DNA of 64,000 bases from Xanthobacteraceae bacterium (GTDB taxonomy: Bacteria > Pseudomonadota > Alphaproteobacteria > Rhizobiales > Xanthobacteraceae), in NCBI GenBank assembly GCA_009694215.1, contig SHVN01000002.1, positions 25,111 through 89,110 on the forward strand. Direction: 5' to 3'. Position numbers and translations under genes: made by a program. Positions within the stretch are counted from its first letter, which is position 1. Each line of letters starts with the position of its first letter. This document shows, in pieces, positions 45,088 through 63,689 of this stretch. The notes beneath the pieces are model-generated. The model made no database searches. It saw nothing but the letters and a program-made list of their open reading frames with translations, and was not told the DNA's origin.

Positions 45088-46248
<1,161 letters not shown>

Positions 46249-48826: not shown

Positions 48827-48841
48827 GTTCTTGTTTTGTTC
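48827..48841. promoter_or_regulatory. Predicted LexA (SOS) box, GTTC-N7-GTTC
   Basis: GTTCTTGTTTTGTTC is an exact match to the alphaproteobacterial LexA direct repeat GTTC-N7-GTTC. It ends 24 bases before the ATG of the radical SAM gene, a position expected to overlap its promoter. The same site is about 100 bases from the divergent DUF3551 gene. Confidence 0.65.
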
Positions 48842-48865
48842 TCAAGGATGGATTAGATAGCGGCA

Positions 48866-50029
48866 ATGTCACATTCATTGGCACGTTCATCAGCAGTTCT
48901 CCGCAGCCCGCCGGCGTTGGTGCCCTCTGCGCCGGCGGGCTACTCGCCGCCCGACATCGGTATCGCCCGAGACCGGCGCCGCGGCCGCGGCACGCTTTCC
49001 AACGTATCCGGCCGCTACGAGCCGATCGCGCGGATAGCCTTCGACGACGGCTGGCAGAGCCTGGAGGAATTGCCGGCCTTCGCCACCACGGTGTTGGTCG
49101 ATTCCACGCGCAAGATCATCACCCGCAACGAATCGCCGGATATCTCGTTCGACCGCTCGATCAATCCCTATCGCGGTTGCGAGCACGGCTGCGTCTATTG
49201 CTTCGCGCGGCCGACGCACGCCTATCTCGGGCTGTCTCCGGGGATCGACTTCGAGTCCAGGCTGTTCGTGAAGCCCGACGCGCCGGCGCTGCTGGAGAAG
49301 GAACTGTCCGCGCCCAATTATGAGCCGCGTACCATCGCGATCGGCGCCAACACCGATCCGTACCAGCCGATCGAGCGCAAGTACCAGGTGATGCGCGGCA
49401 TTCTCGAAGTGCTGGAGCGCGCTGGTCATCCGGTCGGTATCGTCACCAAGTCGGCGCTGATCCTGCGCGACCTCGACATCCTCACGCGGCTTGCCGAGCG
49501 CAACCTGGTCAAGGTGGCGCTGTCGGTGACGACGCTCGACGCCAAGCTCGCCCGCACCATGGAGCCGCGAGCGGCGACCCCGGGCCGCCGTCTCGAGGCG
49601 CTGCGGCAATTGTCGGCGGCCGGCATTCCGACCTCGGTGATGGTGGCCCCCGTCATCCCGGCCATCAACGACGCCGACATCGAGCGTATTCTCGACGCGG
49701 CGGCTATGGCGGGCGTCAAGGGCGCGGGCTATGTGCTGCTCCGCCTGCCGCTCGAAGTGCGCGACCTGTTCGTGGAGTGGCTCAGGGCCAACTATCCCGA
49801 TCGCGCCGACCATGTGATGAAGCTCATTCGCGACATGCGCGGCGGCAAGGACTACGACGCGACCTTCGGCGTGCGCATGAAGGGCACCGGGCCCTATGCC
49901 TGGATAATCGGCCGACGGTTCGAGAAAGCCTGCGCGAAGCTCGGCCTTAACAGGGAGAGGGCGGTGCAGACCACCGAGCATTTCCATTCGCCCAGGCCGC
50001 GCGCCGAGCAGCTCAGCCTGTTCGGCTGA
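48866..50029 (+). CDS. PA0069-family radical SAM protein (spore photoproduct lyase-like)
   Basis: 387 residues. The radical SAM cluster motif C-x3-C-x2-C is in [20 protein letters not shown], preceded by the family-specific [11 protein letters not shown]. Later segments, [38 protein letters not shown] and [20 protein letters not shown], match the PA0069/Rv2578c group related to spore photoproduct lyases. No reaction is established for this group. A perfect SOS box just upstream implies induction by DNA damage, consistent with a repair role. The ATG at 48866 has only a distant AGGA, so the start is not certain. Confidence 0.88.
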
Positions 50030-50130: not shown

Positions 50131-50853
50131 ATGAGTCGGACCGCCGCCGCCAAACCCGCGCGAAACGTCGAGCGCCTGCCGCTGGTCGAGGAAATCCTCC
50201 GCCCGACGTTCCGTCGCGAGCGCCGCGCGCTGGCGAAGGGCGTCTGGCCTGTCGCGGGATGCGACGAGGCCGGGCGCGGCCCGCTCGCGGGCCCGGTGGT
50301 GGCGGCCGCGGTCATCCTCGATCCCGACCGCATTCCGCGCGGCCTCAACGATTCCAAGAAGCTCACGCACGAGGAGCGCGAAAAGCTCTACGCGAAAATC
50401 TGCGCCACGGCGGAAGTCGCGGTCGCCTTCGGCTCAACCGACCGCATCGACCGCGACAACATCCTGCGCGCTTCGCTCTGGGCGCTGGCTCGCGCCGTGA
50501 GGGCGCTGCCAGTACGGCCCAAGCTCGTGTTCGTCGATGGCCGCGATCGGATCGACTGCGGCTGCGACTGCGAGGCGGTGATTTCCGGCGACGCGCTGGT
50601 GACCTCGATCGCCGCGGCCTCGATCGTCGCCAAGGTCACGCGCGACCGGCTGATGATGCGGATGGGTCTCGCCCATCCGGGCTACGGCTTCGAGCGCCAC
50701 ATGGGCTACAGCGTGCCGGAACACTTCAAGGCGCTGAACCGGCTCGGCCCCACCATCCACCACCGCCGTTCGTTCGCGCCGGTCGCGGCCTTCTACAACG
50801 AGGCCGTGGTCGAGGTGACCGTGACGGAAGCAGCGCTGCCGCTGGAGCCGTAG
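50131..50853 (+). CDS. rnhB: Ribonuclease HII
   Basis: 240 residues. The catalytic motif [19 protein letters not shown] (Asp-Glu pair) and [15 protein letters not shown] are diagnostic, with the further acidic site [11 protein letters not shown] and [17 protein letters not shown] completing the active site. It nicks RNA-DNA junctions and removes misincorporated ribonucleotides. I use [12 protein letters not shown] at 50131; the track start adds 12 residues. It follows the radical SAM gene on the same strand after about 100 bases. Confidence 0.94.
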
Positions 50854-62643: not shown

Positions 62644-63513
62644 ATGGCTGCCCTCGTCGAACACGCCCCGGCCAAGGTCAATCTCACGCTCGCGGTGCTC
62701 GGCCGGCGCGCCGACGGCTATCATCTGCTCGACAGCCTGGTGACGTTCGCCGGAGCAGGCGACCGGCTGGCACTGGTTCCCGGCGGCACGCTTTCGCTCC
62801 ATGTGCGCGGATTGACCGCGGCCGAGGCGGGCCCGCTCGACGGCAATCTCGTGCTCAAGGCCGCGAGGGCGCTGGCGACGGAAATTCCCAATCTCAAGGT
62901 CGGGCGTTTCATGCTCGACAAACGGCTGCCGGTGGCGGCGGGTCTCGGCGGCGGATCGTCCGACGCCGGCGCAACTCTCCGGCTGCTGGCTCGAGCCAAC
63001 CGTCTGCCGCTCGACGACGCGCGGCTTCGCAAGGTGGCGCGGCGGACCGGCGCCGACGTGCCGGTCTGCGTCGATCCGCGCCCGCGGCGGATGCGCGGCA
63101 TCGGCGAAATACTCTCGGGGCCCCTCTCGATCCCGAAACTTGCCGCGGTGCTGGTCAACCCCGGCGTCGCGGTGCCGACCAGGGACGTGTTCGCGATCCT
63201 GGGCTTCAACCCCGGCGAAGCGGCCGCGAGCGCCGGGCGGGCTCGCGCGTTGCCGCGCGACCGTGGCGGCTTCGTCGCCTATCTCGCAGGCGAGCGCAAC
63301 GACCTCGAGCCTGCCGCCATCACGCTTCAGCCGGTGATCGCGCGGGTGCTCATGGCTCTGCGTGGAGAGCCGGGCTGCGATCTCGCCCGCATGTCGGGCT
63401 CCGGCGCGACCTGCTTTGGGTTGTTTGCGTCGTCGCGCGCGGCGGCGGCTGCGGCCCGCAGCATTTCGGCGGCGCATCCGCGCTGGTGGGTGAAGGCGAC
63501 GGCGTTCGGTTAG
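62644..63513 (+). CDS. ispE: 4-diphosphocytidyl-2-C-methyl-D-erythritol kinase
   Basis: 289-residue GHMP kinase. EHAPAKVNLTLAVLGRRADG with the catalytic Lys, YHLLDSLVTF, the ATP-binding Gly-rich loop LPVAAGLGGGSSDAGATLRL, and the C-terminal MSGSGATCFGLF are all present. It phosphorylates CDP-methylerythritol in the non-mevalonate isoprenoid pathway. The convergent polyprenyl synthetase, a consumer of its products, begins beyond the right edge of the window, so two isoprenoid genes are neighbours. Confidence 0.95.
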   Translation: MAALVEHAPAKVNLTLAVLGRRADGYHLLDSLVTFAGAGDRLALVPGGTLSLHVRGLTAAEAGPLDGNLVLKAARALATEIPNLKVGRFMLDKRLPVAAGLGGGSSDAGATLRLLARANRLPLDDARLRKVARRTGADVPVCVDPRPRRMRGIGEILSGPLSIPKLAAVLVNPGVAVPTRDVFAILGFNPGEAAASAGRARALPRDRGGFVAYLAGERNDLEPAAITLQPVIARVLMALRGEPGCDLARMSGSGATCFGLFASSRAAAAAARSISAAHPRWWVKATAFG

Positions 63514-63689
63514 CCAAGTCGCAAGAAAGCCACGCGGTCGTAGATTTGGTATGAACCTACCACGAACCTGAATTCATTTTCGTTAGTGTGCAATTTGAAA
63601 CCGTCCACACAGCCCGTGGTGCACATCGAGCACAAATCCGGCGATCGGCCTTCGCGCCCGGCGAGTGTGAATTCTTGAGAGGCGACGCG

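Follow-up and report, generated by a model that had tools for sequence, protein, structure and literature searches.

A probable LexA operator conserved upstream of PA0069-family radical SAM genes in Alphaproteobacteria

The locus considered here raises the question of whether a GTTC-N7-GTTC box located immediately before a radical SAM gene of a Xanthobacteraceae bacterium is a genuine LexA operator and, if so, what the enzyme placed under its control might do. The original prediction held that this box fits the alphaproteobacterial SOS pattern exactly and precedes the gene start by 24 bases. Both readings agree with the sequence of the window (the whole stretch of 64,000 nucleotides that was analysed), in which GTTCTTGTTTTGTTC is found at 48827-48841 on the plus strand, in the promoter region and 24 nt before an ATG at 48866-48868. 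The features relevant to the argument are the following.

48827 to 48841, plus strand: probable LexA operator (SOS box), GTTCTTGTTTTGTTC
48831 to 48836, plus strand: inferred −35 hexamer TTGTTT, located inside the operator
48854 to 48859, plus strand: inferred −10 hexamer TAGATA
48866 to 50029, plus strand: gene for a PA0069-family radical SAM protein of 387 amino acids with the cluster motif CEHGCVYC (Cys105, Cys109 and Cys112), assigned by NF033668, Radical_SAM (PF04055) and a structure model
50131 to 50853, plus strand: rnhB, ribonuclease HII (PF01351), with its ATG at 50131

Occurrence of the box in the genome and in orthologues

The bare pattern GTTCN7GTTC matches the window three times where 1.68 matches are expected, and 77 exact matches in the 3.5-Mb genome have to be compared with 67 for the reversed control. 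A 'perfect' match taken alone is therefore weak evidence, and the genome counts of the bare pattern were dropped from the argument. The refined form GTTCTTGWWWTGTTC, which includes an AT-rich spacer, is more selective: with up to two mismatches it detects a single site across the window, where 0.13 would be expected, and its only exact matches in the genome are the site in the window and one other. A second match to the bare pattern, inside the open reading frame at 48885-48899, was not seen in relatives and is probably due to chance. The same probably applies to an exact match at 63553-63567 on the minus strand, just past the 3′ end of ispE (62644-63513).

The original prediction had named the lack of the box in orthologues among the observations that would speak against it. 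PA0069-family genes were therefore gathered from relatives, from the class and from the phylum, and the 600 nt that precede the CX3CX2C motif were scanned for the box and for five control motifs (the reversed motif, the opposite strand and three permutations). The exact box was found before 112 of the 121 alphaproteobacterial orthologues, compared to 0 to 4 for the controls. In a second, partly overlapping set of 79 usable named loci it was present in 78, the sole exception having a site with one mismatch, and in a further, partly overlapping set it was present in 25 of 25. The position is conserved as well, since 124 of 209 distinct upstream contexts with a box have their first in-frame ATG 23-25 nt after it, and 78/80 plus-strand matches at 80 loci with flanks of up to 3 kb lie within one 300-nt bin before the gene. 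Nine of the 121 orthologues lack the exact box, though a lexA match was found there, and in four of these nine a site with one mismatch lies close to the normal position. Of 241 alphaproteobacterial genomes sampled, 138, and thus more than half, contain a family member that scores over the cut-off.

Outside the Alphaproteobacteria the alpha-type box was absent from all 39 orthologues from other Pseudomonadota. However, 25 of these 39 are preceded by CTGT-N8-ACAG (controls 0, 0 and 1), the sequence that LexA classically recognises in beta- and gammaproteobacteria, and two non-alpha orthologues from one family have TTAG-N6-TACTAA sites, either TTAGTAATAATACTAA or TTAGCAATAATACTAA, which we take to match the Xanthomonas-type LexA box. 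Because the operator type differs by group and yet sits at the same gene, it appears that the gene keeps its LexA control while the kind of operator changes with the LexA of the group. That the box at our locus matches a short degenerate pattern merely by chance, as would befit a genome in which 77 exact sites against 67 for the reversed control mark most such sites as noise, can be practically dismissed in view of the near-universal conservation at one position in orthologues and of the different LexA operator types that take its place in other Pseudomonadota. We put the probability that 48827-48841 is a genuine LexA operator at about 0.93, the decisive evidence being that both its sequence and its position are conserved in orthologues.

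Loss of LexA was rejected as the cause of missing boxes, because each of the 58 genomes checked had a lexA match. However, the five genomes in which the best LexA match falls below the family cut-off (G287, G322, G384, G547 and G555) are all among the 23 box-negative genomes. This suggests that these five have LexA specificities outside the patterns used here. Upstream of one box-negative orthologue (L230), in the region 150-420 nt ahead of its cluster motif, there is a long near-palindrome, GATCAATATAGTACGATCGTTCTATATTGATC, which might serve a divergent LexA or another repressor as operator.

Promoter region, SOS circuitry and reach of the operator

Alignment of the orthologue upstream regions showed that box positions 5-7 read TTG at 92, 91 and 87%, and that TA is over-represented 12-13 nt past the box. 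In the window the order is TTGTTT, a 17-nt spacer, TAGATA, GCGGCA and ATG, which places the TTG of the box 17 nt from the conserved TA and the presumed −10 hexamer 12-17 nt after the box. A strict consensus scan called no sigma-70 promoter at the locus. The conserved TTG within the box spacer fits a −35 hexamer, which suggests to us that the −35 element lies within the operator and that LexA would probably block RNA polymerase there. With this arrangement transcription would begin at the ATG or directly beside it, in which case the mRNA may be leaderless.

The source genome encodes both LexA and RecA. The lexA gene lies on contig C33 with GAACACACATAGAAC upstream and recA on contig C81 with GAACATATTGCGAAC upstream, and both uvrA and ssb are preceded by boxes, which means that LexA and RecA are accompanied by boxes at core SOS genes. 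Other AT-rich boxes are located beside dnaE/lolD (G000:C185:18705-18719), rmuC/def (C115:25956-25970) and a glyoxalase-radA pair (C174:12123-12137), and the genes next to these three sites are further candidates for SOS control in this genome. As long as the cell is undamaged, a LexA dimer bound to GTTC-N7-GTTC would cover the −35 region and keep the radical SAM gene off. Upon DNA damage, activated RecA would trigger LexA self-cleavage, and the gene would then be expressed together with uvrA, recA, ssb and other SOS genes. LexA binding and damage induction of the radical SAM gene are thus what the conserved box leads us to expect.

A gene for a CcrM-type adenine DNA methyltransferase is also located in the window, at 45088-46230 on the minus strand and about 3 kb from the SOS gene, its match to NF050803 being 604.7 bits and thus below the cut-off of 830. 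A ccrM match was present in the flanks of 12 of 60 and 8 of 80 orthologue loci, and in those 12 it lies downstream of the radical SAM gene.

As the original prediction had noted, rnhB follows just downstream; it lies on the same strand after a gap of 101 nt. It is doubtful, though conceivable, that the radical SAM gene and rnhB form a single SOS operon under this operator, which would make RNase HII damage-inducible as well. The arrangement is common, with rnhB downstream on the same strand in 71 of 80 and 41 of 60 loci, and in the window neither a box before rnhB nor a terminator-like site between the two genes was found. However, the two genes are 101 nt apart here, and in the two sets of loci the gap has a median of 175 or 289 nt, which makes an own rnhB promoter likely, and the conserved adjacency may simply reflect syntenic inertia. 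The reading we prefer is that the operator serves the radical SAM gene.

Relationship of the protein to spore photoproduct lyase

The protein is an ordinary member of the PA0069 family, matching NF033668 (rSAM_PA0069) over model positions 1-348, that is in full length and with no difference, at 555.4 bits against a cut-off of 360. No useful match was obtained in a sequence search of the PDB, by which no relative with a solved structure was detectable, and PADLOC gave no match. An AlphaFold2 model based on a 60-member alignment (pLDDT 89, pTM 0.86) was compared with the PDB, and its six best matches were all spore photoproduct lyase (SPL), with E-values from 3.8e-9 to 8.7e-8 and a TM-score of about 0.5, the next family following at 1.1e-6. 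With the SPL of Bacillus and Geobacillus (PDB 4FHC-4FHG, 4K9R and 4RH0) the protein shares the radical SAM fold over 306 aligned columns, the CX3CX2C cluster motif and an invariant Tyr before the last cluster Cys; Cys105, Cys109 and Cys112 are invariant in the 60-member alignment. The identity is only about 17%, and the window's PA0069 gene differs further by its putative LexA control.

In SPL, the thymine radical receives its hydrogen atom from Cys141 (B. subtilis numbering), and the pathway is completed by Tyr99 and Tyr97 (PMC5368176). The protein from the window has just four cysteines, Cys105, Cys109, Cys112 and Cys356, and no fourth conserved cysteine exists among the 60 family members, in which Cys140/141 of SPL are not conserved. 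When residues were placed by spacing, not by structural superposition, the site near Cys141 was occupied by Pro in 36 of the 60 members and by Cys in 17, with Pro154 in the window protein, so that by this correspondence the latter lacks the SPL hydrogen donor. Placed likewise, the Tyr99 position was Phe in 39 of 60 members, and Tyr111, at the Tyr97 position, was invariant. A subset of the family with the full SPL radical pathway (Tyr113 plus Cys154) was considered and rejected, as the two residues did not covary (p = 0.56). Further invariant residues are H118, T163-D164, Q167-P168, E233 and R235, which are candidates for serving the family's own chemistry.

The original description of the gene as related to spore photoproduct lyases consequently stands at the level of the fold, but does not extend to the SPL catalytic cysteine. 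We consider it unlikely that the enzyme works as a genuine spore photoproduct lyase or photolyase and thereby reverses a thymine photoproduct caused by UV. In favour of such a function are SPL as the closest PDB entry by fold, the naming of COG1533 members as SplB photolyases in the literature and the retained tyrosine at the Tyr97 position. Against this stand the lack of a conserved cysteine outside the cluster, the predominance of Pro and Phe at the two sites discussed above and their failure to covary, the absence of an SPL-named family from the NCBIfam matches, and hosts that are not known spore-formers. Since an SPL-like fold is combined with no conserved non-cluster cysteine, PA0069-family proteins should not be called SPL or 'photolyase'. 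In our preferred reading the product would be a [4Fe-4S]/S-adenosylmethionine enzyme with the SPL fold that most likely acts directly on damaged DNA or nucleotides, by a chemistry without the SPL cysteine as hydrogen donor.

Previous predictions and implications

LexA control of splB (COG1533) in alpha- and betaproteobacteria has been predicted before, on the argument of two divergent LexA motifs (Sanchez-Alberola et al. 2012, PMC3323433), and was restated as established in 2021 (PMC8565304). The original prediction that the box ties the PA0069 family to DNA damage is thus supported by the orthologue survey, but it is not a first, and the LexA-radical SAM link reported here is a new instance of a published one. 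It should be noted that these papers name splB or COG1533 and not PA0069, the two being equated here by description. The published gene shares with ours the radical SAM assignment, alpha-type LexA sites in Alphaproteobacteria and a different type in Betaproteobacteria, and a 'splB homologue with alpha and beta LexA sites' fits the PA0069 family. Compared to the published prediction, the present data add a larger survey, a third operator type (Xanthomonas-type), the typical spacing of 23-25 nt, the embedded −35 element and, as judged by spacing, the absence of the SPL cysteine in the PA0069 family. A study on the Caulobacter SOS regulon gives the same operator consensus, GTTCN7GTTC, with the boxes of ccna_01391 and ccna_02355 reading GTTCttgttatGTTC (PMC12700426). 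The literature text searches that we made gave no match for PA0069 or Rv2578c together with LexA. Both genes may be included in SOS gene lists that have been published for Pseudomonas aeruginosa and Mycobacterium tuberculosis.

The conserved LexA switch is strong evidence, at the level of sequence, that the enzyme helps bacteria to handle DNA damage. A direct role in DNA repair is probable, though less firmly so than the operator itself, and would imply DNA as the substrate. We see about an even chance for the broadest reading, in which PA0069-family proteins belong to the core DNA-damage enzymes of Pseudomonadota that LexA controls, have stayed under SOS control through three or more LexA operator types and are engaged in radical SAM repair other than spore photoproduct reversal, the latter because the SPL hydrogen-donor cysteine is missing. 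The operator is one of few regulatory clues to a widespread and uncharacterised enzyme family and, being near-universal, it indicates under what conditions the gene is expressed and what kind of damage assay would suit it. If the enzyme does repair DNA by radical chemistry, the SOS response would contain a widespread, as yet uncharacterised repair reaction.
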